Under the pieces are notes generated by a model that ran no database searches, was not told the DNA's origin, and worked only from the letters and a program-made list of their open reading frames with translations. From a virus: DNA of 64,000 nucleotides. Made by a program: the position numbers and the translations under genes. The stretch is taken from positions 51,295 through 115,294 of IMG/VR virus record IMGVR_UViG_3300013014_000020; one strand, given 5' to 3'. Positions within the stretch are counted from its first letter, which is position 1. Each line of letters begins with the position of its first letter. Shown here in pieces: positions 41,748-61,469 of this stretch.

Positions 41748-43484
41748 TTATTCACATAACCATATATCTACCTCAGCATTTGTTGAGACATATGTTCTAT
41801 ATACTGAATAAATAGTTAAATATCCAAAATTGTCAATTAAAGAAACGTCTGGTTTAGAAATAATTGGAATAACAAATCCGTTACATCCTGAATTACTATT
41901 TCTAAATATTGATGGTTGTGGCATTGATTTAGGTATTAATATATAGATATAACCAATTCCATTTGAAACTGTTAAATTAAGATCTATTGATGTTGTTATA
42001 TCTAATTTTATTAATGTTGATACGTCATTAGTTGTTAAATTTGAGTTTTGTATTTTTCCATAATAAATCACAGGAGCTGGAGGAGGACTTGATGTTGGTG
42101 TTGGTGTGTTTGTTGGTGTAGGAGTATTTGTTGGTGTATTTGTTGGTGTATTTGTTGGTGTATTTGTTGGTGTTGTCGTAGGAGTTGGGGTATTAGTTGG
42201 GGTTGTCGTAGGAGTTGTTGTTGGAGTATTTGTTGGTGTATTTGTTGGTGTTGTCGTAGGAGTTGGGGTATTAGTTGGGGTTGTCGTAGGAGTTGTCGTA
42301 GGAGTTGTTGTTGGAGTAGGTGTATTTGTAGATGTTATTGTAGGTGTTGGAGTATTAGTTGTTGTTGGAGTTGGGGTATTAGTTGGGGTTGTTGTTGGAG
42401 TAGGTGTATTTGTAGATGTTATCGTAGGCGTTATTGTAGGCGTTATTGTAGGTGTTGGAGTATTAGTTGGGGTTGTTGTTGGTGTGTTTGTCGGAGTAGG
42501 GGTATTAGTTGTTGTAGGTGTAGGCGTAGAAGTATTTGTTGGAGTAGGTGTAGGGGTATCTGTAGAAGTTACCGTTGGTGTGCCTGTAGGCGTAGGAGTA
42601 TTTGTAGGAGTAGGTGTAGGCGGGATATTTGAAATTATATTAACTGCATACTCAACATCCAAATCCACATTTAACACGCGAGTATTTTCTAAACAATTTT
42701 GGTCTGATAACATATTAAAGTCATAATCTAAAATGACTTCTGTAAATCCACTTACCGATCCTAAAGGTATTGTAATTTGCTTGGTAACAACCATTCTTTC
42801 ACCATCTAAAGAAACTAATACACAATCATACTCAACAGTACTATCCACATCAAGAGGTATATTATATCTAACAAATGACTGTAATATAACCGAACCTGGA
42901 ACAATATATTGATCAATTAAAACTTGTAAAACTGTTGGGGATGGTGATGCAGTCGGCGTTTGTGTTGGGTTACATTCCGGAGTCTTTGTAGGTGTAGGAG
43001 TATTGGTTGGTGTTTGTGTCGGTGTCGGAGTCTGGGTAGGAGTATTAGACGGTGTAAAGTTTGGAGGCAAAGGCGTTACACACAAATTCCAAGTAGGAGT
43101 TGGTGTTGGCGTAGGTGTCGCTGTTGTTGTTGCTGTCGGAGTGTTTGTTGGTGTAGGAGTCTGTGTAGGTGTTGGCGTATTAGTAGGAGTCTGTGTTGGA
43201 GTTCTTGTAGGTGTTGGAGTTGGTGTTCTTGTAGGTGTATTTGTCGGTGTTGGTGTAGGAGTTGGTCTTGGTACGTTTAAAAAGTTTGTACAACTACCAC
43301 CATCTGTTGATATTGTGTATGTTCCGTAAATTTCTTGTTGTGGTGTTAATAAATCTGGCTGGAAAGTATATGGAAGTATAACAAAACCAATATTTATAGT
43401 GATATTACTATTATCTGGTTTGAATAGTATTTGGGCGCTTTCACCGCTAAAATTAACACTTTGTATTGTAATTATCTGACTCAT
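41748..43484 (-). CDS. Thr/Pro-repeat extracellular-type fibre protein
   Basis: 578 residues. Residues 1-70 form a small beta domain ([19 protein letters not shown]), similar at its start to the LCIB-fused protein. Two long low-complexity blocks (residues ~73-180 and ~287-465) consist of TPTPTNTPT-type repeats, mucin-like and rich in Thr/Pro. Between them (~190-285) is a beta-sandwich-like domain ([33 protein letters not shown]) that resembles the inserted domain of the tail sheath. A C-terminal beta domain of ~100 residues closes it ([19 protein letters not shown]). Thr/Pro repeats are classic targets of O-glycosylation and prolyl hydroxylation, and such enzymes are encoded nearby. A TATTTAT motif (43496-43502) lies 11 bases upstream. 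Confidence 0.75.
42090..42630 (-). repeat. Thr/Pro low-complexity repeat block (major)
   Basis: Near-continuous 6-base-like units encoding Thr-Pro, with variants GTTGGTGTATTTGTTGGTGT on the plus strand. It forms the second mucin-like stretch of the protein at 41748-43484. Long antisense frames here (VGVGV-rich) are shadows. Confidence 0.85.
42930..43270 (-). repeat. Thr/Pro low-complexity repeat block (N-terminal)
   Basis: First Thr/Pro stretch of the same protein, [15 protein letters not shown]-type, separated from the main block by a folded domain. Confidence 0.8.
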
Positions 43485-43495
43485 TGTATATTTTT

Positions 43496-43502
43496 ATAAA
43501 TA
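43496..43502 (-). promoter_or_regulatory. TATTTAT before Thr/Pro-repeat gene
   Basis: Minus-strand GTATTTATAAAAATA, 11 bases before the ATG at 43484. Confidence 0.55.
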
Positions 43503-43515
43503 CAATCAAACAGAC

Positions 43516-43719
43516 TTATTTTTTAATTTTAATCATTTTATACCAAGCTCTTTCGTGTATAAAATAAATAAAAGGTTTAATTAATAGTTCACCCAAACCA
43601 ATTAAAGATGAAACCTCTATTGATGCACCAAGTAATAACGCGGTTCCAATTGTTGTTAATGTTGCAAAAAATCTATAAGTCAAAGTTTTTAATATGTGTC
43701 TTTTTAAATCAACCTGCAT
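43516..43719 (-). CDS. DUF2061-like small membrane protein
   Basis: 67 residues. The pattern RHILKTLTYRFFATLTTIGT, ALLLGASIEVSSLIGLGELL and then FIYFIHERAWYKMIK fits the DUF2061 family of two-helix membrane proteins (Lys/Arg-x-x-Thr-Tyr/Trp-Arg start, and the HERxW motif at the end). Members are sometimes fused to or found beside sulfate-assimilation (CysC-like) and glycosyltransferase genes. Here it follows the sulfotransferase gene by only 11 bases and is in its operon. Its role is unknown; a membrane link to sulfate metabolism is a speculative possibility. Confidence 0.72.
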   Translation of the reverse strand: MQVDLKRHILKTLTYRFFATLTTIGTALLLGASIEVSSLIGLGELLIKPFIYFIHERAWYKMIKIKK

Positions 43720-43730
43720 ATTATATTAAA

Positions 43731-44549
43731 TCAAAAATAACCCAATTGATCATAGAACCATTGATGTTTTTGTTTTATCCAGTTACATGCTGGCACCCCA
43801 AGGACTTCTTTGTAATCTAATTTTAATGGTTCTATTTTTGATTTAATTGTGTGATCACCATAAATTCCATATACAGAATCATCTTCTTGTGTTATCTGTT
43901 CTACATTATTAAAATCGTGTTCGTAGTATGGTAGTTCTAAATAATTGTAGATTCTTTCCATTTCCTTTTTTGGGTTTGATGTAAAATCCTCAAACTTAAC
44001 AAACAAAACTTTTGTGTTAATACCTTCTTTAAACATTTGGTACAACCTCTCAATAGCAAGACCAACTGGTTGTGATTGAGCCCAAACATCAATTCTTTTT
44101 TCTGTTGTTGTTCCTTGCATTTGCGCGTGGTTTACAACACCAGAATCCATATGTTGACTTTTTCTAAAATTCTTTTCCATTGATGCAAAAATTCCACGTA
44201 AATCCCTTACCATACAAATAATTTTTGGTTCTGGATAAAAAGAATTTAAAAATCCGTAATGAATACCCCAACCTCTACTTTTATCTAAAACGTATGGTTT
44301 GTCTGTTACACCATTAAAAAAACCGGTAACACCTTGATTACAAAAGTTTAAAAACCCTTGTTTCATCAATTCCGAATCTTGTGCTTTAAATTCTGGTGAT
44401 GTAGTGTAATTTGCTCTTGCGGCATATACTAATTCTAAAACACCAGATGTTGGTGTTACATAAAAATCTGGATTTTGACCCATTACATTTTGAAGCAATG
44501 TTGACCCTGCTCTTGGTAATGAGCTTTGAAAAAATATTTTTTGTACCAT
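43731..44549 (-). CDS. PAPS-dependent sulfotransferase
   Basis: 272 residues. The 5'-phosphosulfate-binding loop is SSLPRAGSTLLQNVMGQNPD (residues 9-28) and the 3'-phosphate-binding segment is IICMVRDLRGIFASM (around residue 110). KVLFVKFEDFTSNPKKEMER and the following YNYLELPYYEHDF give the usual end of the fold. It transfers sulfate from PAPS to hydroxyl groups of sugars, tyrosines or small molecules. It is the third gene after GT8, TibC-like and GT9 enzymes in one operon and precedes DUF2061, so the likely acceptor is a glycan made by these enzymes, possibly on the fibres. PAPS would come from the host. Family assignment is firm; the acceptor is inferred. Confidence 0.85.
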   Translation of the reverse strand: MVQKIFFQSSLPRAGSTLLQNVMGQNPDFYVTPTSGVLELVYAARANYTTSPEFKAQDSELMKQGFLNFCNQGVTGFFNGVTDKPYVLDKSRGWGIHYGFLNSFYPEPKIICMVRDLRGIFASMEKNFRKSQHMDSGVVNHAQMQGTTTEKRIDVWAQSQPVGLAIERLYQMFKEGINTKVLFVKFEDFTSNPKKEMERIYNYLELPYYEHDFNNVEQITQEDDSVYGIYGDHTIKSKIEPLKLDYKEVLGVPACNWIKQKHQWFYDQLGYF

Positions 44550-44552
44550 AAA

Positions 44553-45437
44553 TTAATTTTTTAGTGATTCGATTATTTCGTTTACATTAAAGATGTTTGT
44601 ATCAAATAAAGGACATTCGTGTATTGTACCATTAAAGCTGTAATCAAATAAATAGCTATCTGGTAACTTAACGGTTGTTGGTAATTCAGCGATAATGTTT
44701 GTGTGTAATGGATAACCAAATACTTTTGGTGATGTTCCAATCCACAATATTGTTGACGGCAGACCCATAGCGGCGGCTGCATGTTGTAAACAAGAATCAA
44801 TTAATAATCTTTTTTGAGCATAAGCTAATAGTGAAAATAATTCCATATTAGACATTGATTCCGTATGAGCTTCTACGTTTTGTAAAATATTAGTTTGATC
44901 CCTACATATTTGGATTATGTGATAATATTGTGAAAAGTGATCAACAATTTTTTGTGCAACATCAAAAGGAATATCTCTTGTCCAAGAATATGGATAAGGT
45001 TGTTCTTGTAATGGACCACCGTTTGTTTGAATAACCATTACAGGTTTATCACGTTTCCATTTATTAAATGCAACTTGTTGTTGTCTTAAATTAAATGAAA
45101 GTGCTGGCATTTCACCATTATATTCTAAACCAAAAAGTTTACACCAATTCATAATTAACGGTAACTTTTTTTGAATGTGGTCTGTTGTAAAATAAGGTTC
45201 GTGTTTAAAAATTAAACTATCTTTATCTTTAATGTAATCATCATAGAAATATGGTGTCATACCAATTCTATATACTCTATCAACAAAATCTAAATTTAAA
45301 AATATTTCTGGATACGCACAAACAATAATTAATTCTCTATCTGGATGATTATTTTTTATACATTTTGCAACAGCAGTTGATAAAACGTGTTTTCCTAAAC
45401 CACCCTCAAGGTGAAAAATACTATATTTTTTTTCCAT
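44553..45437 (-). CDS. GT9-like (heptosyltransferase-type) glycosyltransferase
   Basis: 294 residues, GT-B fold. The N-terminus IFHLEGGLGKHVLSTAVAKC matches the donor-cleft glycine-rich start of heptosyltransferase-like (GT9) enzymes. The C-terminal half has MELFSLLAYAQKRLLIDSCL, QHAAAAMGLPSTILWIGTSP and KVFGYPLHTNII, the standard GT9 nucleotide-sugar end (Asp-Ser, then His-Ala-Ala-Ala-Ala). GT9 enzymes usually transfer ADP-heptose. It lies between the TibC-like gene and the sulfotransferase, with spacers of 19 and 3 bases, in one operon. The donor and acceptor cannot be read from the sequence. Confidence 0.75.
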   Translation of the reverse strand: MEKKYSIFHLEGGLGKHVLSTAVAKCIKNNHPDRELIIVCAYPEIFLNLDFVDRVYRIGMTPYFYDDYIKDKDSLIFKHEPYFTTDHIQKKLPLIMNWCKLFGLEYNGEMPALSFNLRQQQVAFNKWKRDKPVMVIQTNGGPLQEQPYPYSWTRDIPFDVAQKIVDHFSQYYHIIQICRDQTNILQNVEAHTESMSNMELFSLLAYAQKRLLIDSCLQHAAAAMGLPSTILWIGTSPKVFGYPLHTNIIAELPTTVKLPDSYLFDYSFNGTIHECPLFDTNIFNVNEIIESLKN

Positions 45438-45456: not shown

Positions 45457-46371
45457 TTAATTATTTGTAAATGCGATTGTTTTATTTATTTCATCTATTA
45501 CCATATCCGGTGTTATTGATAAATGACATTCGTTTTCTCTATCTGTTCCCAAAAATATTGGGCATTTAGTTTTTATGTTTGGGAACATATTAAAACATCC
45601 ATTACAAACATATGGGTTTGTGACTCTAAAACAATCAAATTCATTTTGTCTTTTTGTGAAATTTGAAATCATAACCACCGGAACATCATAAGCCCAGGCA
45701 AGCCAAGAAAGTCCAGACGATAACCCAACAAAAAATCTTGAACTAACAATATGATTAATTGCAACATTTATATCATCGTGTCCGTGAAAATCTTTTACAT
45801 TTTGTAAATTCATTGTGTTTTCATAAGAAACATTATAAACATTATAACCACCATTATGTAATGAATTAACAACTTCTTGCCAACCACTGGTTCCACCATA
45901 ATTCCATTGTGAAATTTCCTTAATCGTTTCTGGACCGATTGTAACTTTATTTGGGTCTACTGTTCTTAATTTTGGAATTACCGGACACTTACCTGGTTTT
46001 GTGTCTTGTGGAAGTCTCATTGTATCTTTAGCAGCATAAAACATCCCGCCTAAAGTGTGTGCCATATTATTTTTATCATACCCAACATCAACTAGTTTAT
46101 CTATTTCTAAAAAACCACTTTCATTTGCATTTATAAATTCATAATCCGGTCTTTTTGATTTTAAAAGATGTGGAAAAAATGTGGTTATCCAAACGTATTT
46201 TGGTTTATGATAATCCATAAATGCATCGATTAATGATGAAAAACAAATTGTATCACCCAAACAGAATGAGTCAAAATGTAATAATAATTCTTTTCCTTCA
46301 AAGTTTTCTAAGTTAGGGTCTCTTTCTTTATAGTTCATCAACTCAGAATTGTCGTAATGTCTTTTAACCAT
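45457..46371 (-). CDS. TibC-like (autotransporter heptosyltransferase-type) glycosyltransferase
   Basis: 304 residues. The C-terminal region has the bacterial autotransporter heptosyltransferase signature: FFVGLSSGLSWLAWAYDVPV, VMISNFTKRQNEFDCFRVTN, and four cysteines C256, C259, C270 and C282 (YVCNGCFN, KTKCPIFLGTDRENECHL) as in the metal-binding motif of TibC. The N-terminus (LLLHFDSFCLGDTICFSSLI) is the GT9-type donor loop. TibC and Aah glycosylate Ser residues in the beta-roll-like repeats of TibA/AIDA-I adhesins with ADP-heptose. The genes just upstream encode Ser/Thr-rich beta-roll fibres, so they are natural candidate acceptors. It overlaps the GT8 gene by 8 bases. Family assignment is strong; the donor sugar and acceptor are inferred. 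Confidence 0.82.
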   Translation of the reverse strand: MVKRHYDNSELMNYKERDPNLENFEGKELLLHFDSFCLGDTICFSSLIDAFMDYHKPKYVWITTFFPHLLKSKRPDYEFINANESGFLEIDKLVDVGYDKNNMAHTLGGMFYAAKDTMRLPQDTKPGKCPVIPKLRTVDPNKVTIGPETIKEISQWNYGGTSGWQEVVNSLHNGGYNVYNVSYENTMNLQNVKDFHGHDDINVAINHIVSSRFFVGLSSGLSWLAWAYDVPVVMISNFTKRQNEFDCFRVTNPYVCNGCFNMFPNIKTKCPIFLGTDRENECHLSITPDMVIDEINKTIAFTNN

Positions 46372-47107
46372 TTTTATATTTTAAAAGTTTAGAGTAATAT
46401 TCAAACCAATATCTTTCTTGCCAAATTGTTCCTTCTTCCAAATAAACTAATGGTTTTTTTTGCCAAGGTTTTTTTACAATGTAGTGTAAAATCTTAATAT
46501 GTTTTGGGAGTCCTGTGTTTTGAAATATTTCTTTTGAATATGTTTTTAAATAATTGTACGATACTGGTATTTCAGTTATATCATCGTAAAAATAATTATT
46601 TATGATGTCCTGGTCAAGATGTTCTGTAATACCATAGATTGTTGTAAGATGTATTAAATCATTTGTAATTTTTTCTGATAAGTACTTTTTTGAGATTACT
46701 AATACACCAGTGTTATATTGATCAATGTATAAGTCTCTAACACCACCGATATCACCATCAAAGTCAATTAGATAATCAATGTTTCCTAAAATAACAACAT
46801 CGGAATCTAAAAATATAATTTTGTTAAATTCAATTAATGAAAAAATTTCGTATTTGGTGTAATCACCAAAAGACATTTGTTTTTCTTTTAGTTTTTCTAT
46901 TTCAGAATATTTTTCGGTGTCAAATCTTTTTATGTGTATATTGTTATAAATTTTTCTTGATGTGACTAAATCTTCTGGTGTTAAATCATTTGTTATGATT
47001 ACAAATGGTAAACTTTCACTAACAACTCTTGGGTTGTTATCAATTAACGATTTTAACATTACCTCAAATCCTATGAGATAATCTTTATTACATACTGTTA
47101 CAAACAT
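46364..47107 (-). CDS. GT8 glycosyltransferase (glycogenin/galactosyltransferase-like)
   Basis: 247 residues. Typical GT8 features: VCNKDYLIGFEVMLKSLIDN at the start, the metal-binding DSD (101-103) in IIFLDSDVVILGNID, YNTGVLVISKK, the HLDQDIINNYF acceptor motif (~163-172), and the C-terminal HYIVKKPWQKK (~208-218). GT8 enzymes are retaining transferases using UDP-sugars; members include glycogenin and, in some eukaryotes, the terminal enzyme of the Skp1 glycan (Gat1). It heads the GT8, TibC-like, GT9, sulfotransferase and DUF2061 operon, which starts after the terminator of the fibre above. An imperfect promoter (CATTTATATTT) lies just upstream. Confidence 0.85.
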   Translation of the reverse strand: MFVTVCNKDYLIGFEVMLKSLIDNNPRVVSESLPFVIITNDLTPEDLVTSRKIYNNIHIKRFDTEKYSEIEKLKEKQMSFGDYTKYEIFSLIEFNKIIFLDSDVVILGNIDYLIDFDGDIGGVRDLYIDQYNTGVLVISKKYLSEKITNDLIHLTTIYGITEHLDQDIINNYFYDDITEIPVSYNYLKTYSKEIFQNTGLPKHIKILHYIVKKPWQKKPLVYLEEGTIWQERYWFEYYSKLLKYKNG

Positions 47108-47134
47108 ACTGGAAATATAAATGAAACCTCATAA

Positions 47135-47180
47135 AAATAAAGAACCCCAACTGTTTTAAAATTGGGGTTATTAAAATTTT
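47135..47180 (-). terminator. Terminator between beta-roll fibre and GT8 operon
   Basis: The minus-strand stem AACCCCAA/TTGGGGTT with an 11-base loop is followed by CTTTATTTTTAT. It separates the giant fibre from the GT8-TibC operon, which therefore needs its own promoter or read-through. Confidence 0.72.
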
Positions 47181-47191
47181 ATAATTTGCTA

Positions 47192-50100
47192 TTATGGAAC
47201 ATATTTTATTCTACACGAATCGGCACCATCGTACCAAATAGATCCAGATGGTAATCCAAAAGAACCAGGAGGTAAATTTACAATACTTAAACAGTTAACA
47301 TATGTTGTGTTTGGACAAGATGTTACAATATTTTGACCAATAATAAATGAACAATCGTGTTGTACTGTATTTAATATACCACCTAATATACCACCGTATC
47401 TTGAGATTATTGCGTTACAAAAACCACCACCAATCACACCCCAACCTAAAGTTGATCCACTTATTGTGTTACATTCTCCCGCACCAATAAAACTATACGC
47501 CGAACTAAAAGTTGTGTTTTTAAAACCACCAACAATCGCACTTTGACAAGATAATGACGTGTTACAACTACCACCACCGATTATTGTATTTTCTTCAGAT
47601 GTAACATTGCACGCACCACCATTTATACTATTTCTATTTGATAATGTTGTATTGTTTCTACCGGCACCTATAAAGGAACTTGAGCCATTTGTGGTGTTAC
47701 ATCTACCGGCGCCAATAAATGAAATTGTGTCAACTGCGGTATTTTCACAGCCACCAACAATAGTTGATCCTGTTGTTACAGCAGTATTTAATAAGCCCCC
47801 ACCAATTGTTGAGTAAAGCCCACTTGAAGTGTTTTGACGGCCACCACCAATAGTTGAACCATAACAACTTGATGTGTTATTATAACCACCACCTACGGTT
47901 GAATAATTACCACTTGATGTATTACACGTACCTCCATTTACAATTGAATAATTACCACTTGATGTGTTTTTAAGCCCACCACTTACGATTGAATAACTTC
48001 CACACGATATGTTGAAATTTCCACCAGCAACAGTTGATACGGCACCACTTGATGTGTTACAATATCCACCACTTACGGTTGAATCATTACCACTTGATGT
48101 GTTACGATAACCACCACTTACGGTTGAATTATCTCCACTTGATGTGTTACATCGTCCACCACTTACGGTTGATTGATAACCACTTGTTGTGTTACAATAT
48201 CCACCACTTATTGTTGAAAAATCAGCACTTGATGTGTTACAATATCCACCACTTATTGTTGAGCAATTTGATTGTATCGTATTATAGTAACCACCACTTA
48301 CGGTTGAGTACTGACCAATAATTGTATTATTTTCACCACCACCGATTGTTGAATCTTGTCCATCAATTAAATGGTCTTCACCACCAGAAATTGTTGAGTA
48401 ATCTGAATTAGTAGTTATTGTACTATTTTCACCACCACCGATTGTTGAGTAACAAGCTGATGCTGTATTACTGTATCCACCACCGATTGTTGAGTAACAA
48501 GCTGACGCTGTATTACTTTCTCCACCACCGATTGTTGAGTAACAAGCTGACGCTAAGTTATCACGACCACCACTCACAGTTGAACATTCACCATAAGCTG
48601 TGTTATTACGACCACCACTAACAGTTGAGTAACGAACTGACGCTAAATTATTACGACCACCACTAACAGTTGAGTATTGTCCAAGTGAACTATTATTACA
48701 ACCCCCACCAACAAATGAATATGTTCCAGATGTTGTATTTATTTGCAATGTAACATCATCAGTAACTGATACACCACCAAAACTAGTCCCATCAAAAAAT
48801 AATGTATCACCATCTACATAATTAGTACCACCATATACAATATTAAGATATGAAAAAGAACCTGTATTAAATGTAAAGTCAAATATTGCACCCGTCCCAT
48901 ATCCAGAAACAGTTGATGTTGGTGCGATACCGTTGTAGGCACCATTAAAAGTTCCACCGGTATATACTGTATTGTAGTAATTACTAACAGTATTTTTTAT
49001 TCCTGATTTATTTCCATAACCACCACTTATTGTTGAAAAATTAGTGTATGATGTATTTTGAAAACCGCCACTAACAAGTGAACAACTACCAAGAGCGTCA
49101 TTTGATGTACCAATTCTTTGTGTTGAGTCTACACCAACACCAACTTCATAAAGTCCAACACCACCATTTATAACATTTCCATCAACATCAATACCTAAAG
49201 TATTTATTGATGTACCAGTTGTTACATTTTGAATATTTAAATAAGGAACATAAACAGTATCGTTTGTTGTTCCAGAAATATTTTGTCCTCCTAAAATAAC
49301 ACTTCTATCTGCGTTAATTGTTGAGTTATTTGAAAATACCATTGAGCAATCACCTAACACTAAGTTTTGATTACCACCAACAATTGCAGAACAATATCCA
49401 GATACGGTATTTCCATAACCACCAGAAATATTACTATTAAAACCAATTGCAGTATTAAACTGACCTCCAGCTATTACTGTACCGTCAGAATAAACTTCAT
49501 TAGATAATCCACCTAATATTGATGCGTATGTTCCGTAGTTTCTATTTTGTGAACCACCGGCTACAACAGAAATGTTTGATACCGTTGTGTTTTCACATCC
49601 ACCACCAACAAATGAACTAGACCCTAAGTTTACGTTCTTACATCCACCAACAACAATAGAAAAGTTTGCGTCTGATGTATTACAACACCCACCAAGAATT
49701 GCGCTACCACAAGAATCAACCGTATTGTATTCTCCACCACCAACAACAGTAAAATCACAATTTGCGATGTTTGAATTACCCCCACCAACAAAAGCTGTTG
49801 TGTCGGCTGCTGTGTTAAATCTACCTCCCGCAACAATTGCAAAATCTCCAGTAGCACTATTCTGTGCTCCGCCGCCAACGGTTGAGCAAGCGTTTATTGC
49901 GACATTTTCAAAACCACCACCGACAGTTGTGTTATAATCAGAAGCTGTGTTTGATTCACCACCACCAATTGCTGAATATTTTCCAGAAGAAGTATTGTTA
50001 CAACCAGCAGTAACAGAAGCATAATTTTGTGATGCAATATTTAAATAACCACCACCAACAAATGTACAACCATCTGAAGTTGTGTTCTTACAGCCCCCAG

Positions 50101-50473
50101 CAATTGTTGAAAGGTCACCATCTGTTGTGTTTAATTCTCCACCACCAATAAAAGATGATGACGCACCAGAAAATGTTACATTTTTATAACCACCAGTGAT
50201 TGAACCAAATGTTCCATTATCTGTATTACAATAACCACCACCGATAAAAGAATAATTCCCAGTTGACGTATTACATCTACCACCAGTAACTACACCCATA
50301 CAACCAGTTGTTGTATTAAAAAAACCACCAACTATTGTTCCGTAGTTTTTATCTGCTGTGTTTGAATACCCACCTAATACTGTTGAATAATTACATCTAG
50401 CTTCATTGTTATTATCACATCTAACTGTAGAGTTTATCCCACCTACCGGGTCATCAATTATAACGTAAGCCAT
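47192..50473 (-). CDS. Giant beta-roll fibre/adhesin
   Basis: 1093 residues. It starts MAYVIIDDPVGGINSTVR, a cap shared with the next fibre gene. Nearly the whole protein is 15-residue beta-roll repeats (STVSGGYxNTSSGxx, SFIGGGxxNTTxGxx), about 55-60 in two arrays. An internal junction at residues ~390-430 has NDTVYVPYLNIQNVTTG. A second cap-like piece (LYEVGVGVDSTQRIGTSNDA) and an insert at ~494-584 with GYGTGAIFDFTFNTGSFSY separate the arrays. The C-terminus (NLPPGSFGLPSGSIWYDGAD) resembles that of the fibre at 23902. It is likely a trimeric adhesin. Many exposed Ser/Thr residues make it a candidate acceptor for the TibC-like enzyme. A terminator lies after it (47135-47180). No promoter motif is visible upstream, so it may be read from the previous fibre. 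Confidence 0.8.
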   Translation of the reverse strand: MAYVIIDDPVGGINSTVRCDNNNEARCNYSTVLGGYSNTADKNYGTIVGGFFNTTTGCMGVVTGGRCNTSTGNYSFIGGGYCNTDNGTFGSITGGYKNVTFSGASSSFIGGGELNTTDGDLSTIAGGCKNTTSDGCTFVGGGYLNIASQNYASVTAGCNNTSSGKYSAIGGGESNTASDYNTTVGGGFENVAINACSTVGGGAQNSATGDFAIVAGGRFNTAADTTAFVGGGNSNIANCDFTVVGGGEYNTVDSCGSAILGGCCNTSDANFSIVVGGCKNVNLGSSSFVGGGCENTTVSNISVVAGGSQNRNYGTYASILGGLSNEVYSDGTVIAGGQFNTAIGFNSNISGGYGNTVSGYCSAIVGGNQNLVLGDCSMVFSNNSTINADRSVILGGQNISGTTNDTVYVPYLNIQNVTTGTSINTLGIDVDGNVINGGVGLYEVGVGVDSTQRIGTSNDALGSCSLVSGGFQNTSYTNFSTISGGYGNKSGIKNTVSNYYNTVYTGGTFNGAYNGIAPTSTVSGYGTGAIFDFTFNTGSFSYLNIVYGGTNYVDGDTLFFDGTSFGGVSVTDDVTLQINTTSGTYSFVGGGCNNSSLGQYSTVSGGRNNLASVRYSTVSGGRNNTAYGECSTVSGGRDNLASACYSTIGGGESNTASACYSTIGGGYSNTASACYSTIGGGENSTITTNSDYSTISGGEDHLIDGQDSTIGGGENNTIIGQYSTVSGGYYNTIQSNCSTISGGYCNTSSADFSTISGGYCNTTSGYQSTVSGGRCNTSSGDNSTVSGGYRNTSSGNDSTVSGGYCNTSSGAVSTVAGGNFNISCGSYSIVSGGLKNTSSGNYSIVNGGTCNTSSGNYSTVGGGYNNTSSCYGSTIGGGRQNTSSGLYSTIGGGLLNTAVTTGSTIVGGCENTAVDTISFIGAGRCNTTNGSSSFIGAGRNNTTLSNRNSINGGACNVTSEENTIIGGGSCNTSLSCQSAIVGGFKNTTFSSAYSFIGAGECNTISGSTLGWGVIGGGFCNAIISRYGGILGGILNTVQHDCSFIIGQNIVTSCPNTTYVNCLSIVNLPPGSFGLPSGSIWYDGADSCRIKYVP
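47780..48700 (-). repeat. Beta-roll repeat array (giant fibre)
   Basis: About 20 consecutive 45-base units, many with the same core (CACTTACGGTTGA on the plus strand and ACTTGATGTGTTA). Neighbouring units are very alike, suggesting unequal exchange. Confidence 0.75.
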
Positions 50474-50502
50474 ATTTGTTTTTTTTATTTTTAATTTATG
50501 TT

Positions 50503-50530
50503 TAAACCCCCACTATTAAATGGGGGTTTT
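50503..50530 (-). terminator. Hairpin between two beta-roll fibres
   Basis: Stem AACCCCCA/TGGGGGTT with loop TTTAATAG (read on the minus strand CCCCCATTTAATAGTGGGGG). The T-run after it is short (GGGGGTTTAAAC), so termination in the minus direction may be partial, allowing read-through into the next fibre, which has no visible promoter. Confidence 0.55.
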
Positions 50531-50539
50531 TGTTTTTTA

Positions 50540-53500
50540 TTAAAGTTTAATCCAAAGTTGAGTACCACCACCTGACGCGCTTGTTGTACATCTATAAACA
50601 GTACCACTTGGAAGTGCCGCAACTTCAGTTTCGGTTGGTAAACTTTTTAAAGTAACTCTTGAACAAGTGTTTGGAGATGAAATACCACCACCATTAACTG
50701 TAAAGTTATTTACAAAAGTTGTGAAACATTGATCAGTTGTAATGTTACATCCTAAAATGTGTGTATCACTTAAACAAGCTGTGTTTAATCTACCAACAGC
50801 AGATGAATATGAAGCAAGATTACTAATATTATTTCCACAACCACCACCGATTGTTGAATGAGGAACACTAGTACCAATCACGTTGTTTTCACCACCATTA
50901 ACAACACTACAACAAGAACTATTTGTGTTGTTTCTACCACCAACAATGCTTGAGTGAGACTGTGTTGCACAGTTAAATTGACCACCACCAATTGTTGAAT
51001 AAGATTGGATTAAACAGTTTGACGCTCCGCCACCAATTGTTGACGCGTAGCCTGTTGCAGATATTGAGTTTGAAATACCACCTAAAATACCTGATACCGT
51101 AGATGCCGCGGTATTTGTACTACCTAACACAACAGAACAAGGTCCACTAGCAACGTTTGCCGATCCAGTTCTTAATGTTGAAAGCGAACCTGCACCCGCA
51201 ACAACAATTTGAGCTGGAGTTGATGTTAAACCTGCTGGTAATCCACTCACTGTTGCCACACCGTTTTGTCTATTTAATGTGATTAAACCGTTAGCGTTAT
51301 TATATGTACCACCAGTTACGTAGTAATCATTATTTAAGAAACCAGTTGCTGTAACAATATTTCCGTTATTTAATGATAAATCTAATGTACCGTTAGAGTA
51401 TGTTGCACCAGTTACAAAATTATTTTGTGTTTGGAAACCAATTACAGAAACACTCGGTTGTCCATTATTTTGTCCTAATGTTAATTGTCCTGTTAAAGAA
51501 TTATAAGTACCACCAGTTAAATATGTGTCAGTATCAAAGATACCACTAATTGTTACAGAACCATTTTGTCTATCTAAAGATATTTCACCAGTACCAACAT
51601 TGTAAGTACCTCCAGTTACATAATAATCTGTAAATCCTGTTGCAGTAACTATTGAACCATCACTATTTGTTAATGTTAATGTTTCATTGACTTTTGTCGC
51701 ACCAGTTAATATAACATCGGTATATCCAGTTAAGAATCCAGAAACACTAAATGTATTTCCAGAATTTGTAACAAATGTTGCATCACCAGTTGTTGGGTTA
51801 TAAGTACCACCAGTTACGGTCATATCAGATGCTAACACCGATAAATTAACTTGATAAGCATTACCATCATTTACTAAAGCCTCTAGTTCAAAAGTTCCTG
51901 GGTTCCAAGTAAGACCTGTTAAATAGTAGTCAGTTGTTGATGAACCGATAACAACATTACCAGAGCCATCAACCGCTAAGTTTGAAACTGGCGTTGTCGC
52001 ACCAACTGTTTGAATGTTTAATTGTGGTACATAAACGGTATCGTTTGTTGTTCCCGTAATGTTTTGTCCACCAATAACAGCGGTTCTAACGCCAAGTGCT
52101 ACGTTTTGATAACCACCTAAAATCATTGAGTAAAGGCCGGATGTTGTATTTTCTCTACCACCATTAATTGTTGAATACCAACCAATAGCTCTATTACACC
52201 TACCACCAGTAGCTGTTGCCATATATCCATTAGCAGTATTTAAAAATCCACCACCAATAAATGTGTAAAAACATTTTGAAATATTGCCATAACCACCAAC
52301 TACTGTTGAACACGGATTACATGCCGTATTAAATTGACCACCACCAACAATACTTTTGTCACCAACAGCGGTATTACAAAAACCACCACCAACTACTGAT
52401 TGAGAACCACATGTTTGATTTCCCCAGCCACCGGTAATATTCGACATATAACCGTAAGTTTGATTTAAGTATCCACCACCAACAAAATTGTAACCACCGT
52501 AAGCATTGTTAAAATATCCACCACCAACAGTATCGTATGTGTTGTTAGCACCATTATTTGTACCACCAACAACTGTTGCGGCATATTGTGTTGAGTAATT
52601 TGATGATCCACCAAGTACTGTTGAATTTTGTGCTGAAGCTGCGTTACTTGCATTTTTTCTAACTGTAGATGAAACACCACCACCACCTTGTACTATTACA
52701 GCATCATCAATACCAGAAATACCAACAGTACCGTTTTGTTGTTGTATTGTTAAAGTCGATGTTGATGGAGTATAAAAACCACCAGTAACATATGTATCTG
52801 TATATCCAGTTAAGAAACCAGTAACATTAAATGTTCCACCAGAATTATTTGTAAAAGTTGCAGTACCAGAGTTTAAATCATATGTACCACCAGTCACTCT
52901 TAAATCGCCAGCTAAAATACCTAAATTAACCGTGTATGCACTATAGTTGTTTAGTTCAACTGTTAAGTCGTAAGTACCTTGATTAAATGTAAATCCAGTT
53001 GTAAAATAATCTGTTGCACCAGTTGTAAAACCAGTCACAACAAAAGAACCACCTTGGTTGTCTTCAAATGTCGCAATACCAGTTGAGTTATCATATGTAC
53101 CTCCCGTAACATACGTATCGATAGATGTGAATCCAGTTACTAAAACTGAAGAACCATCTGTATTTGTTAATGTTAAATTACCAGCAGTAAATGTACCACC
53201 AGTTAAATATGTATCAGTATATCCAGTTGTAAAACCAGAAACTTGTACTGTATTTCCAGATGTGTTTATAAATGTTACAACACCAGTATTTGCGTTATAT
53301 GTTCCACCTGTTAAACCTAAGTCAGTTGCTAGAACACCAAGATTAATTGTATCTGTAAAACCATCGTTTCTTCCAATAGTTAAATCAAAATTATTTGTGT
53401 CAAACGTTACACCAGTAAAATATTTATCTTCTAATCCAGGAACAATAACATTACTTCCATTTTTTAAATCAAGTGTTAGAGCACCTGCATTATAATTAAA

Positions 53501-54316
53501 AGTACCGCCAGTCACAAAATTGTCAGTAGTAACAAATCCGCCTTGGACCACGTTACTTCCGTCACTATTTATTAAAGTTAATAAACCAACGTTATTTAAT
53601 GTTGATGCACTTAAATATACATCACTATAGTTACCAATAACAACATTGCCGTTAACATCGACACCTAAATTATTAACAGACGTTGTTACTCCAATTGAAT
53701 CGATATTTAATTTTGGTACATAAACGGTGTCTGCTGATGTCCCTGTTAATCCAGCACCACCAAGAATAACTGATCTTGCGCCGGTTAATACATTTGAGTT
53801 ACCACCAATTGTTGCAGAATAATTACCACTAACATTATTTAACTGTCCGTTCCCAACAAAAGAGTTTACACCTCTTGCAATGTTGTTATCACCACCAGCA
53901 ATTGTCGAACCTGACATTGCTGTGTTATTGTCACCACCAAGAACATTAGATTTTAAATTTATTGCTGTATTATAATAACCACCACCTACAATTGTATAAT
54001 CCGATTGTGCCGTATTAAAAGCGCCGCCATTAACAACTGATGATTTACCGTTTGCAAAGTTATTACAACCACCACCAACACTACTTAAAAGTCCGTTAGC
54101 GCGATTAAGATAACCACCACTTATATTAGAATAATCTCCTTTTGCTGTATTTCCTCTACCACCGGCAACCGTTGCGTATCCGGTATTTCCACTTGTTGTG
54201 TTTGCTCTACCTCCAGAAACGGTAGAATAAAGAGCTGAAGCAGAATTTGTTTGTCCACTTCTAACAGTTGTTGTTAATCCACCTACTGGATCACTAATAA
54301 TAACGTAATTTGACAT
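50540..54316 (-). CDS. Giant modular fibre: three beta-roll modules joined by shaft repeats
   Basis: 1258 residues. Three cap-like starts are visible: residues 1-20 (YVIISDPVGGLTTTVRSG), ~542-560 (VIVQGGGGVSSTVRKN) and ~1033-1050 (QIVVAGAGSLSTLRTG). Each is followed by beta-roll repeats (STVSGGRANTTSG and similar). The first two modules end with a conserved exit (TNDTVYVPQLNIQTVGATTP, then VDGSGNVVIG). Between modules run shaft units of about 30 residues, VTGGTYNxxTGxxxLxxxNG, as in the fibre at 29137. The C-terminus ends in SGTVYRCTTSASGG. It is a multi-domain tail or head fibre. A TATTTAT motif (54352-54358) is about 35 bases upstream, and a hairpin terminator follows at 50503-50530. Confidence 0.8.
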   Translation of the reverse strand: MSNYVIISDPVGGLTTTVRSGQTNSASALYSTVSGGRANTTSGNTGYATVAGGRGNTAKGDYSNISGGYLNRANGLLSSVGGGCNNFANGKSSVVNGGAFNTAQSDYTIVGGGYYNTAINLKSNVLGGDNNTAMSGSTIAGGDNNIARGVNSFVGNGQLNNVSGNYSATIGGNSNVLTGARSVILGGAGLTGTSADTVYVPKLNIDSIGVTTSVNNLGVDVNGNVVIGNYSDVYLSASTLNNVGLLTLINSDGSNVVQGGFVTTDNFVTGGTFNYNAGALTLDLKNGSNVIVPGLEDKYFTGVTFDTNNFDLTIGRNDGFTDTINLGVLATDLGLTGGTYNANTGVVTFINTSGNTVQVSGFTTGYTDTYLTGGTFTAGNLTLTNTDGSSVLVTGFTSIDTYVTGGTYDNSTGIATFEDNQGGSFVVTGFTTGATDYFTTGFTFNQGTYDLTVELNNYSAYTVNLGILAGDLRVTGGTYDLNSGTATFTNNSGGTFNVTGFLTGYTDTYVTGGFYTPSTSTLTIQQQNGTVGISGIDDAVIVQGGGGVSSTVRKNASNAASAQNSTVLGGSSNYSTQYAATVVGGTNNGANNTYDTVGGGYFNNAYGGYNFVGGGYLNQTYGYMSNITGGWGNQTCGSQSVVGGGFCNTAVGDKSIVGGGQFNTACNPCSTVVGGYGNISKCFYTFIGGGFLNTANGYMATATGGRCNRAIGWYSTINGGRENTTSGLYSMILGGYQNVALGVRTAVIGGQNITGTTNDTVYVPQLNIQTVGATTPVSNLAVDGSGNVVIGSSTTDYYLTGLTWNPGTFELEALVNDGNAYQVNLSVLASDMTVTGGTYNPTTGDATFVTNSGNTFSVSGFLTGYTDVILTGATKVNETLTLTNSDGSIVTATGFTDYYVTGGTYNVGTGEISLDRQNGSVTISGIFDTDTYLTGGTYNSLTGQLTLGQNNGQPSVSVIGFQTQNNFVTGATYSNGTLDLSLNNGNIVTATGFLNNDYYVTGGTYNNANGLITLNRQNGVATVSGLPAGLTSTPAQIVVAGAGSLSTLRTGSANVASGPCSVVLGSTNTAASTVSGILGGISNSISATGYASTIGGGASNCLIQSYSTIGGGQFNCATQSHSSIVGGRNNTNSSCCSVVNGGENNVIGTSVPHSTIGGGCGNNISNLASYSSAVGRLNTACLSDTHILGCNITTDQCFTTFVNNFTVNGGGISSPNTCSRVTLKSLPTETEVAALPSGTVYRCTTSASGGGTQLWIKL

Positions 54317-54429: not shown

Positions 54430-57261
54430 TCACCATTTTCTCGAATAAGTCTTCATATCGTTAAAAGATATGTAAGCATGACCACCAATACCCCAAGATT
54501 TCCCCCAACTATTTTTTATTCTAAAAACTTTTTTTGTTAAATCAACACCATTAATAACATAAGCATGACCACCGGCGAATTTACCAGTTAATCTTATGTT
54601 TCCAGACTTATCTGGACTAAACATTCCATTATACCAATTTGTACCAACTACAACTGGACCAACTTTTAAAACTGTGTTTACAAGTGTTGGTAAATCAAAT
54701 GCCCAATAGTAAGATTTTATTTTACCAATTTGTTGTAAATATTTTACAGCACCCCTAACTGATGTACCATTATAATTTTCACCAGGCCATTGATCTAATT
54801 TTTGTGCGTTAAAATAAATTGTACTTGGATTTACAACTGGTGGTATTCCAGATTGTTGAACTGGTCCATCTTCTAACCAGTGAGACCAAGAATAACCAAC
54901 ACATTGTGGTAGCGCTCCTTGATTACCCCACCATCCATTTGCATCCCAAAATCTTTGTGTTAATATTTGTGGTTTTGAAGAAATAGATTGAATTACTTTT
55001 TGATTATTTTTAATTAGATAATTTAAATCTCTTTTATCTTCCACGTATATTCTACCTAGTTCAAATGGAAGTGTTGTTGCACTTGATGGTGTTATTTCAG
55101 TTTCACCACTTATTGTGTATGTAAAATCATTTGTTAAACAAAATTCAGTATCACAATCTGGACAGAACGGGTTAAAAAATCTAAATTTATCTTTTAAGAC
55201 GTTAAAGTTATGTCTTATTTCAGAAGAATCTAAAGGTTGTACATACATTCTAAATTGTGAAATAGCACCATCAAAAGTACCACCAAATTCCTTTTCTAAT
55301 AATATGTTTGTTGTAAGTCCAGATAATGATGTGCCAGATAGAACAGATGTTGGAAACAACTCTGGGTCTTGTATAAAATCACTACTTAAATTTTCACAAG
55401 TTGATGGTACCAAATTTTCGTGAAGCCCTTGCGTACCACCACCCCAAGAAATGTTAAATGGGACACCAACTTGTTTTTCTTTATCTGTTGGTAGTGCTCT
55501 TGGGATAATTTCTTCAAAATCATTTATTGTATAAATTAATTTACCATTAACATAAATTAATAATTTACCTTTTCTATATTTTTCATCTAATAACCAACTA
55601 TCAGTTAATTTAACTGTTTCTATTTGTTCAGATTCTTTTTTACCATTTGAATATGGTGGCGCTATTAAAGTAAAAGTATTGTTTGCTAAACTTTCAAGGT
55701 ATTCTTTTTTTGTAATGTTACCTAATCCACCCAACCATAATAAATCACAATTATCTAAATTTGTATATCGCCTCCAAACAACATCTAATAAAAACCAATG
55801 TTCTTGTTCTATAAACGCTGGATTTTGTTGTTCACAATAAGAATATATTGGTGGCGTACACCATTCTTGAATTGTATAACCGGTAACAAATGTTGTTCCA
55901 GTTCCAGTTACTGTATTTCCAGTTGTAATACATTCACCAGTAAATCTTAAAACTTTTATTCCAATACCTGGATTTTGTGGATCACCACACAACTTAAATG
56001 AAATATTATTTGACATTGAGTCAAGTAATGGGTCTTTTTCACAAGTGTCCTCTACGGATGTAAACCCAGAAGTAGGACAATCCAAACAATCAAGACAAGT
56101 ATCACAAGTTGTACAAGTCGGCGTACATTCAGGAAGTGGTGTATCACAACTTGGCGTTGGACTAGGAAGTGGTGCTGGGGTTGGTGTTGGTTGAATTACA
56201 TCTCCACAATAATGTGTTTGGCATTCCCAACCACAAGATTCACAAGCAAATTGGTTACAACCGCAACCACAAGTTGCCGCACTCATAGGATTACCCTTAC
56301 AAGAACCACAACCATAATTTATATGTGGGTCGTGAATCCCATTTAAAGAACGTGGCGGATAAAGAAATATACACCTACTATTTGTAATATTTAAATTACA
56401 ACAAGCACAAGTTTGTAAACAATTGGCAAGTGGTGTTGTAACTCTTGTATAACCAGTAAAACATTTTGGTGTTCCATCGGCATAGTGATAAAATTTATTT
56501 TCAGCTCTAGTACCCCAATAGAAAAAAGTATTTTTGTTATTTGGGTATAACCCATTTAATGTTGTTTCGTCAGAACTTGGTAGATATTCATTACATAACC
56601 TTGGTTTTAAAATTAACTCAACACTCCAACCTTTGTTCATTCTTTCTGGAAAAATGTCATAATCAAAACCAAACAGTTTATAAAACCCTTGATAAAAACC
56701 ACCATATAATTCGTGATAAATGCCTTCTGTTGCACCAGTCTTACTAACGACTTCATATAATGTTTGAGCGCTAAACGCCTCAAATCGATTTAAATTTGTT
56801 GTATTCCCAGTAACTTGGAAAAGTTTAAGTCTTCTATCATAATACATTCTATCAAACTTAACACTGTCTTCAAATATACCATTTGTAAAATATATTGTCT
56901 GACCACTCATAGTATTAATTAATCCATTATCAATACCGGTAAATCCAATATCACAAGAAGTTGAAGCACTAAAAAAACAAAAATTAGAATTTTCTGGGTT
57001 ATAATAATTTTGTGAAACAAAAATGTTACTTTTATTATAATTTTTATACTTTAAATTAAGTTTTTGTGCTGTTAACGAATCGTTTATATCAAAATAAAAT
57101 GGAAGCTTGTTACCATAAGTTTGTGCAATAATGTAAGGTGAAAATATAACTTCTTCTTTATAGTCCCTTTCATCTGAAGCTAAGGACATATCCATACTAT
57201 CAGATACTAAATCTATATTGATTTTTTTATAAACATATTGATTAATATTCTGTTGCGACAT
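54430..57261 (-). CDS. Virion-type protein with Cys-rich, LamG-like and papain-like protease domains
   Basis: 943 residues from the ATG at 57261, which fits a TATTTAT at 57273-57279; an ATG at 57285 lies upstream of that motif and is rejected. Residues ~277-407 hold about 21 cysteines (CACC, CGCGC, many CxxC), with a Pro-Thr linker. Residues ~440-690 look LamG/concanavalin-like (GTFDGAISQFRMYVQPLDSS). The C-terminal ~200 residues are a papain-like (C1) peptidase: oxyanion Gln and catalytic C787 in NQGALPQCVGYSW, H899 in GGHAYVINGVD, and Asn near residue 917 in IKNSWGKSWG. Such proteases cleave proteins; a virion role could be cleaving host surface proteins or processing the phage's own fibres. 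It heads the minus-strand fibre block. Confidence 0.82.
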   Translation of the reverse strand: MSQQNINQYVYKKINIDLVSDSMDMSLASDERDYKEEVIFSPYIIAQTYGNKLPFYFDINDSLTAQKLNLKYKNYNKSNIFVSQNYYNPENSNFCFFSASTSCDIGFTGIDNGLINTMSGQTIYFTNGIFEDSVKFDRMYYDRRLKLFQVTGNTTNLNRFEAFSAQTLYEVVSKTGATEGIYHELYGGFYQGFYKLFGFDYDIFPERMNKGWSVELILKPRLCNEYLPSSDETTLNGLYPNNKNTFFYWGTRAENKFYHYADGTPKCFTGYTRVTTPLANCLQTCACCNLNITNSRCIFLYPPRSLNGIHDPHINYGCGSCKGNPMSAATCGCGCNQFACESCGWECQTHYCGDVIQPTPTPAPLPSPTPSCDTPLPECTPTCTTCDTCLDCLDCPTSGFTSVEDTCEKDPLLDSMSNNISFKLCGDPQNPGIGIKVLRFTGECITTGNTVTGTGTTFVTGYTIQEWCTPPIYSYCEQQNPAFIEQEHWFLLDVVWRRYTNLDNCDLLWLGGLGNITKKEYLESLANNTFTLIAPPYSNGKKESEQIETVKLTDSWLLDEKYRKGKLLIYVNGKLIYTINDFEEIIPRALPTDKEKQVGVPFNISWGGGTQGLHENLVPSTCENLSSDFIQDPELFPTSVLSGTSLSGLTTNILLEKEFGGTFDGAISQFRMYVQPLDSSEIRHNFNVLKDKFRFFNPFCPDCDTEFCLTNDFTYTISGETEITPSSATTLPFELGRIYVEDKRDLNYLIKNNQKVIQSISSKPQILTQRFWDANGWWGNQGALPQCVGYSWSHWLEDGPVQQSGIPPVVNPSTIYFNAQKLDQWPGENYNGTSVRGAVKYLQQIGKIKSYYWAFDLPTLVNTVLKVGPVVVGTNWYNGMFSPDKSGNIRLTGKFAGGHAYVINGVDLTKKVFRIKNSWGKSWGIGGHAYISFNDMKTYSRKW

Positions 57262-57272
57262 CTTTTTTATTA

Positions 57273-57299
57273 ATAAATACAACAATCCAAAGTATTTAT
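57273..57299. promoter_or_regulatory. Divergent TATTTAT pair: papain-like / LETM1-like genes
   Basis: Minus copy at 57273-57279 (TATTTATTAATAAAAAAG, 11 bases before the ATG at 57261) and plus copy at 57293-57299 (TATTTATATTAAAAC, 14 bases before the ATG at 57314). Two outward copies within 27 bases of a 52-base gap. Confidence 0.68.
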
Positions 57300-60254: not shown

Positions 60255-61469
60255 ATGGAAAAAATAAATGTATTAGTACTCCCTAGTGACCAATCAGGAG
60301 TTGGAAAATTTAGATCAGTTGACCCCCACGTTAAATTACAAAATATGTATCCAGATGATTTCTATGTGGATATTGACTACGAACCAAAAATAAATGATAT
60401 AAATTATTGGAAAAAATATCAAATCGTCCACTTTCATAGAAGTATTGGGACGGATTATGATAACTGTCCTAATATTGTAAAAATGTTACAATCTATGGGT
60501 ATAATTGTTATTGCAGATATTGACGATTATTGGTTACCAACAAAAGAGCATCCGATACATCAATTAATTATTCAAAATAAGTTACACGAAAAAATAACAG
60601 CAAATCTTAAAGTTGCAGATTATGTTATTACAACAACAGAACTTTTTGCAAACGAAATAAAAAAATACAATAAAAATGTAATTGTATTACCAAATGCCGT
60701 TGACCCACAAGACCCACAATTTAACGAACCAACACCAAAGTCTGATAAAATTAGAATTGGTTGGTTAGGTGGCTCTTCACACTTACACGATTTAAAATTA
60801 CTTGACGGCATGGTTTCTAAACTTTCACAATTTCAAGATAAGCTACAATATTATGTTTGTGGTTTTGATATTCGTGGTACAATAACAGAAATTAACCAAC
60901 AAACTGGACAAAAAACACAGAGAGCAATTAAACCGGAAGAAACTGTTTGGGTTAAATACGAACAAATTTTTACGGACAATTACAAAATTATTACACCAAG
61001 ATATAATGATTATTTAAATACGTTTACTGAAAATGATTATCCTGGTGTTTTAGATGAAAATTATGTAAGAGTATGGACTCGACCCGTAACAAGTTATGCA
61101 AAAAATTATTCTAAATTTGATATTTCGTTGGCACCAATTAAAAACCATATTTTTAACAGAATGAAATCACAACTTAAAGTTATTGAAGCTGGTTTTTATA
61201 AGAAAGCATTAATCGCGTCAAATGTTGGTCCATATACAATTGATTTAAAACACGCACTTAAAAATGGAGGGTTTACTGATGGAAATGCACTACTAGTAAA
61301 TGAAAATAATAATCATAGTGACTGGGCAAAAAATGTTAAAAAATTAGTTGAGAACCCAAATATGATTACGGATCTTGGTGAAAAATTATATGAAACAGTT
61401 AAAGATACCTATGATCTTAATGTTGTTACAAAAAATAGAGCAGAATTTTACAAATCTTTAATTAAATAA
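60255..61469 (+). CDS. GT4-type glycosyltransferase
   Basis: 404 residues, GT-B fold. The N-terminal Rossmann-like half starts INVLVLPSDQSGVGKFRSVD, with YQIVHFHRSIGTDYD and IADIDDYWLP. The linker and C-terminal donor half have VADYVITTTELFANEIKKYN, NVIVLPNAVDP, IRIGWLGGSSHLHDLKLLDG and LKVIEAGFYKKALIASNVGP, then a NALLVNENNN loop and a C-terminal helix. These are usual for GT4/GT1 transferases. The 'Gly-Val-Gly-Lys-Phe-Arg' start occurs in several phage-encoded GTs. The donor and acceptor are unknown. It is separated from the unit to its left by a terminator and followed closely (3 bases) by the exonuclease gene, so a GT sits in the same transcript as DNA-metabolism genes. Confidence 0.82.
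   Translation: MEKINVLVLPSDQSGVGKFRSVDPHVKLQNMYPDDFYVDIDYEPKINDINYWKKYQIVHFHRSIGTDYDNCPNIVKMLQSMGIIVIADIDDYWLPTKEHPIHQLIIQNKLHEKITANLKVADYVITTTELFANEIKKYNKNVIVLPNAVDPQDPQFNEPTPKSDKIRIGWLGGSSHLHDLKLLDGMVSKLSQFQDKLQYYVCGFDIRGTITEINQQTGQKTQRAIKPEETVWVKYEQIFTDNYKIITPRYNDYLNTFTENDYPGVLDENYVRVWTRPVTSYAKNYSKFDISLAPIKNHIFNRMKSQLKVIEAGFYKKALIASNVGPYTIDLKHALKNGGFTDGNALLVNENNNHSDWAKNVKKLVENPNMITDLGEKLYETVKDTYDLNVVTKNRAEFYKSLIK

Follow-up and report, generated by a model that had tools for sequence, protein, structure and literature searches.

The window analysed here, 64,000 nucleotides long, corresponds to bases 51295-115294 of the IMG/VR virus record IMGVR_UViG_3300013014_000020 (record length, 115,294 bp; GC content of the window, 31.8%), a record from an uncultured freshwater phage that also holds tail sheath, baseplate and DNA polymerase genes. 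On its minus strand the window carries a cluster in which two long fibre-like proteins are followed by a set of enzymes that includes a relative of the bacterial glycosyltransferase TibC. In the order of transcription, the cluster comprises a 951-residue protein with a papain-like (C1) peptidase domain at its C-terminal end (54430-57285), which adjoins the fibre and is kept in related phages, the fibre-like proteins FIBB (50540-54316; 1258 residues) and FIBA (47192-50473; 1093 residues), a GT8 glycosyltransferase (46364-47107; 247 residues; PF01501, E 3.8e-25), the TibC-like protein (45457-46371; 304 residues), GT9b, a GT9-like glycosyltransferase that lacks the cysteine-bound iron finger of TibC (44553-45437), and a sulfotransferase of the type that uses 3′-phosphoadenosine 5′-phosphosulfate (PAPS) (43731-44549; 272 residues; PF13469, E 4e-20). 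A preliminary description of the locus, made from the DNA letters alone, had placed the TibC-like gene directly downstream of the two fibres; it does lie downstream, with GT8, whose end overlaps its start by 8 nucleotides (nt), in between. The GT8, GT9 and sulfotransferase genes named in that description all have Pfam matches on the same strand, that of GT9b being weak and below the cut-off (PF01075, 6e-4). The sulfotransferase has the 5′-PSB and 3′-PB motifs for PAPS, as SLPRxGSTLLQ and CMVRDxR, conserved across 14 homologues; its nearest solved relative is a protein-tyrosine sulfotransferase (a weak match, E 8e-5), and the closest PDB chains to GT8 are the Skp1 galactosyltransferase and glycogenin. 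That these solved relatives work on or near protein is only suggestive of a protein acceptor.

The two fibres, which are the putative acceptors, are as large and as rich in Ser and Thr as had been described (25% and 24%), and both have GGxxN repeats spaced at 15 residues. FIBA has 52 GGxxN units and matches the beta-roll profile PF21300 with 45.7 bits (cut-off 30; E 6.9e-12), consistent with an LbR-type fold. FIBB has three GGxxN beta-roll blocks with other beta repeats between them, gave no profile match above cut-off, and is kept upstream of the operon in relatives. Among the clean units of FIBA, 83% have Ser or Thr at position 12 and 76% have one of the two at position 6, so that a regular ladder of possible acceptor residues results. 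A FIBA fragment modelled without an alignment is all-beta, at low confidence (pLDDT 64), and a fold search with this model gave no meaningful match in the PDB. PF21300 is the profile of a grass antifreeze beta-roll, and its matches to FIBA, in 7 stretches, may reflect ice binding or merely a shared repeat architecture. A domain of the autotransporter type was recognised by Pfam in neither fibre.

In bacteria, TibC-type enzymes are known to modify virulence adhesins. The window protein had been assigned to the TibC/Aah family on account of the motif GLSSGLSWLAWA (residues 216-227; 45691-45726, minus strand) and four cysteines, C256, C259, C270 and C282 (45526-45606, minus strand), all of which are present exactly as claimed. 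The cysteines align with the iron-binding C339, C342, C358 and C370 of TibC and occur in 121/121 aligned family members, and the Trp within the motif aligns with Trp305 of TibC and is retained in all 16 members of the phage clade to which the window protein belongs. A profile that includes three phage homologues aligns to residues 91-385 of TibC (E 2.9e-58) and places D40 (codon at 46252-46254, minus strand) on the catalytic Asp110, a residue found in all 121 aligned members apart from one gap, and invariant in the clade. TibC was also the sole match of the window protein in a phmmer search of the PDB (4RAP, E 2.4e-18, residues 133-297), a resemblance well beyond chance. An AlphaFold2 (AF2) model (pLDDT 92.4, pTM 0.90) has the overall GT-B fold, and its 21 best matches in a fold search are TibC crystal chains (E 1e-16 to 9e-19, the best being 8.7e-19), with a TM-score, relative to the query, of up to 0.80; WaaC and WaaF come next, at E values of about 1e-8. 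Thus, the profile alignment, the fold match and the tree (see below) keep the protein apart from GT9 enzymes without the cysteine site. With a dN/dS of 0.09-0.26 against its relatives, the gene is under purifying selection and is not decaying.

The association with fibres extends beyond the window. The order fibre-GT8-TibC-GT9 is kept in nearly all of the 14 closest viral loci, with a variable sulfotransferase, and the nearest relatives have the full order fibre-fibre-GT8-TibC-GT9b-sulfotransferase-APS kinase (APS, adenosine 5′-phosphosulfate). Linkage was assessed by comparison with other genes drawn at random, 500 times, from the same 20-kb loci, with a simple pattern as the criterion for repeats. 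In 12 of the 15 clade loci, the TibC gene has a beta-roll fibre no more than 2 kb away (random mean 3.7), and 27 of 45 other usable viral TibC-like genes lie within 5 kb of a collagen-like or beta-roll repeat protein (random mean 14.4); in neither case did any of the 500 draws reach the observed count. As a bacterial positive control, 17 of 58 TibC homologues were found within 2 kb of very long open reading frames (ORFs), against a mean of 8.2, a modest enrichment.

We therefore consider, with a probability of about 0.47, that the cluster is a phage-encoded late operon for the glycosylation and sulfation of fibres, in which the TibC-like enzyme most likely adds the first sugar. The two beta-roll fibres would be made together with enzymes that decorate the new fibre in the host cytoplasm, before assembly. 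The iron finger of TibC is implicated in the binding of a beta-helical substrate, the residue modified is Ser, not Thr, and the acceptor of the characterised family members is a protein (PMC4358343). By analogy, the iron finger of the window protein may read the fibre solenoid, and the enzyme, translationally coupled to GT8, would place the first sugar on Ser (perhaps on Thr) once per 15-residue coil. The TibC-like enzyme and GT8 would build the first sugars, GT9b would extend the glycan and the sulfotransferase would cap it with sulfate, for which PAPS would be the source; the decoration would probably serve to alter the charge, solubility or stability of the fibre, or its receptor or immune properties. 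The sequence itself establishes the family relationships, the gene order, the purifying selection, the conserved Asp and cysteines and the altered donor site, and from these the acceptor role of the fibre, the succession of the reactions and the sulfation are inferred.

A number of observations weigh against this reading, several of them in the TibC-like protein itself. In 16/16 clade members, Lys230 of TibC is replaced by Ala or Ser and Arg286 by Ala, Ser or Val, and alanine at these positions eliminates or severely lowers the activity of TibC (PMC4358343). The N-terminal beta-barrel (TibC residues 1-97) is found in none of the 16 clade members and is absent from the AF2 model, 39 residues preceding the catalytic Asp as against 109 in TibC, an enzyme that loses its activity when the N-terminal 80 or 95 residues are deleted or when the thumb is mutated (PMC4358343). 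The thumb, in TibC a beta-hairpin whose F265 and V266 serve the dodecamer, has 12 residues in the aligned segment in 16/16 clade members, against 20 in TibC, and is coil in the model. Thr226 is replaced by Leu or Ile in 14/16 clade members; Lys230 is retained in 47/48 viral members outside the clade and in 57/57 bacterial members. The match to TIGR04414 (123.7 bits, E 8.5e-36) is below the equivalog cut-off of 200 bits, and in the tree the clade of the window is monophyletic (100/100), sits on a long stem of 1.87 changes per column, and is not part of the group in which TibC and the other bacterial enzymes fall. Because the donor-site residues are replaced, the barrel is absent, the thumb is short and the clade is separate, we regard the window protein, as far as sequence can tell, as a TibC relative whose donor site has been rebuilt and whose oligomeric state is probably different (a dimer is predicted in place of the dodecamer, since thumb and barrel are missing); it can act as TibC does and yet not be a heptosyltransferase of the TibC/Aah kind. 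K151, invariant in the first 11 clade members, might take over from Lys230. Thus, of the original assignment, the relationship, the four cysteines and the catalytic Asp stand, whereas the protein lacks a number of the features that define TibC/Aah, among them residues and a domain on which activity depends; the label heptosyltransferase is not supported as it was given. Since elements essential to TibC are missing, heptose is not a safe inference as the transferred sugar, and the altered donor site speaks against assuming ADP-heptose. No genes for the synthesis of heptose or nucleotide sugars were present among the matches listed for the record (25 of 40 Pfam families).

Other points against concern the fibres and their neighbourhood. 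The loci of the clade share ancestry, and descent thus explains part of their common gene order; beyond the clade, the gene for the repeat fibre frequently lies on the opposite strand. A unit contains 2.64 Ser residues in the 63 beta-roll fibres that have no TibC nearby and 2.26 in the 27 that do; since fibres lacking TibC are no poorer in Ser, composition does not betray modification, and Ser/Thr-richness was rejected as evidence of glycosylation. In a converse test, 73 loci were picked by their fibre repeat and compared with 80 polymerase-centred loci. A TibC-like gene is nearby in just 5/73 of the beta-roll-fibre loci, and anywhere on the contig in 5/37 fibre contigs (records that may be incomplete), so that the question put forward for checking, whether phages with such fibres always carry the enzyme, is answered in the negative. 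GT9b occurs in 36/73 fibre loci and 1/80 polymerase-centred loci, a sulfotransferase in 39/73 and 1/80, and an APS kinase in 24/73 and 2/80, respectively. Where a fibre locus has GT9b, the sulfotransferase nearly always accompanies it, and an APS kinase often does. GT9b, often 35-75 nt behind the fibre, is the enzyme that most frequently adjoins beta-roll fibres, and for 58 of 83 GT9b ORFs a sulfotransferase lies no more than 50 nt away. An independent Pfam scan downstream of such fibres recovered a sulfotransferase in 17/93 and an APS kinase in 9/93. None of these enzymes was seen in the fetched stretch of 33/73 fibre loci, in part because many stretches are incomplete. Thus, with GT9b and the sulfotransferase common in fibre loci and the TibC-like gene rare, the conserved fibre cassette consists of GT9b and the sulfotransferase (and APS kinase), and the GT8-TibC pair is an optional insert between fibre and GT9b.

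Loci with a beta-roll fibre followed by GT9b, a PAPS sulfotransferase and an APS kinase (L258, L261, L268, L273, L284, L293, L296 and L322, among others) mostly have no TibC, and possibly represent a phage sulfation cassette. The APS kinase in them has about 150 residues, a P-loop and the motif DYSxxGRxxN. No APS kinase was found in the record of the window itself; relative to the related locus L001, about 905 bp are missing directly behind the sulfotransferase (window 43485-43730), where relatives carry the APS kinase. In Marine virus AG-345-L05 (L348, a Kyanoviridae single-cell record), a structural repeat protein, a 2OG-Fe oxygenase-like protein, a sulfotransferase and GT9b stand in a row. 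The idea that GT9b is a TibC paralogue that lost its iron finger was rejected; the two are only distantly related, as GT9 enzymes, and only in their N-terminal halves (hhalign 90%, E 1.4e-6).

A fuller version of the proposal, which we hold more tentatively, would take fibre, GT9 and PAPS sulfotransferase, with an APS kinase of their own in relatives, as the core, and the TibC-like enzyme, devoid of barrel and thumb, together with GT8 as an added initiating module whose donor is not ADP-heptose; iron-finger glycosyltransferases would then be widespread decorators of the Ser/Thr-rich repeat fibres of uncultured phages. The prevalence of GT9b can also be read differently, however. In the main rival account, GT9b itself might link the sugar to the fibre, the GT8-TibC pair having been inserted later to lengthen or diversify the glycan, or TibC having become a non-catalytic helper; the frequency of GT9b just behind fibres, the sulfotransferase at its side and the loss of the donor-site Lys throughout the clade all fit this account. 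We nevertheless think it rather unlikely, given that the TibC-like gene is under purifying selection with an invariant catalytic Asp. In addition, we know of no precedent for a GT9 enzyme without iron finger acting on protein, the TibC branch itself excepted.

Two further accounts would place the acceptor elsewhere. GT9 and GT8 enzymes and sulfotransferases are commonly used in the synthesis of surface glycans, and the window has several further glycosyltransferases (see below), so the operon might alter a host surface polysaccharide (lipopolysaccharide, O-antigen or capsule), excluding superinfection or preventing released virions from adsorbing again, and adjoin the fibres only as part of a shared late module. 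The close association with repeat fibres, which is seen in many phages, and the protein acceptors of the characterised TibC-family members (PMC4358343), make this improbable. Slightly less probable still is that the operon glycosylates another virion protein, such as the Pro/Thr-rich product (578 residues) of the next gene on the same strand (41748-43484), which with 35% Ser and Thr and a TPTPTNTPT mucin-like stretch is closer to a classical O-glycosylated mucin than a beta roll is; most related loci have the N-terminal part of this protein as well, and the Ser content of the fibres is independent of TibC. However, the substrate recognised by TibC is a solenoid and not a Pro/Thr linker (PMC4358343), and other phages have the GT9b-sulfotransferase cassette next to their beta-roll fibre.

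Among known systems, TibC/Aah (BAHT; TIGR04414; PDB 4RAP and 4RB4) shares with the window protein the GT-B domain, the Asp, the GLxSGLSWLAWA motif with Trp305, the four cysteines and an adjoining gene for a solenoid adhesin. In contrast, the window protein has no barrel, a thumb segment of 12 instead of 20 residues, replacements of Lys230, Arg286 and mostly Thr226, and a score under the TIGR04414 cut-off; it is encoded in a phage operon with GT8, GT9 and sulfotransferase, and its putative acceptor has no autotransporter domain. Matches to the TibC family number at least 575 stretches in IMG/VR (a redundant count) and occur in only 4/50,697 phage records. The TibC-like proteins of Microcystis phage Mel-JY01, of the 735-kb phage LR756501 and of IMG/VR have the iron finger and the Asp and are often near Ser/Thr-rich repeat fibres; unlike the window protein, nearly all keep Lys230, most follow other domains (glycosyltransferases among them) in a fusion protein, and they mostly accompany collagen-like GTSGTSG proteins. 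In L017 and L029-L092, the TibC-like domain ends long multi-domain proteins (about 700-1450 residues), often near such collagen-like proteins. Two of the collagen-like proteins, on inspection, have C-terminal ends that presumably resemble S74, the intramolecular chaperone found in tail fibres. WaaC and WaaF (GT9) are of the same fold class, with no iron finger and with lipid A-core as acceptor. Mycobacteriophages also glycosylate their own virion proteins, at C-termini of the capsid and tail tube and not on long beta-roll fibres, as far as the account in PMC12619734 goes (citing Freeman et al., 2023). Phage virion glycosylation is thus already known; a search outside subscription papers found no paper on phage TibC-type enzymes or on a sulfotransferase/APS kinase fibre cassette.

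Elsewhere in the window, a PF11397 (GT60-type GlcNAc transferase) match lies at 34000-35241 (minus strand; E 7e-69), in a family that we take to include the protein O-GlcNAc transferases of Dictyostelium. HtrL_YibB (32333-34000, minus strand), DUF2827 (36689-37870, plus strand) and group-1 glycosyltransferase (60255-61466, plus strand) genes are probably further sugar enzymes of the same phage. SprB repeats in two proteins of the record, and operon leaders that are A-rich and have no Shine-Dalgarno sequence, hint at a Bacteroidota host; among isolates, the kin of the polymerase are Salinibacter and Nostoc/Anabaena phages.

If the operon does modify the fibres, there would be sugars and sulfate on phage receptor-binding proteins, and no sequence-based prediction of host range or structure takes these into account. 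The link with sulfotransferase and APS kinase makes for a specific prediction, namely that phage fibres may bear sulfated glycans.

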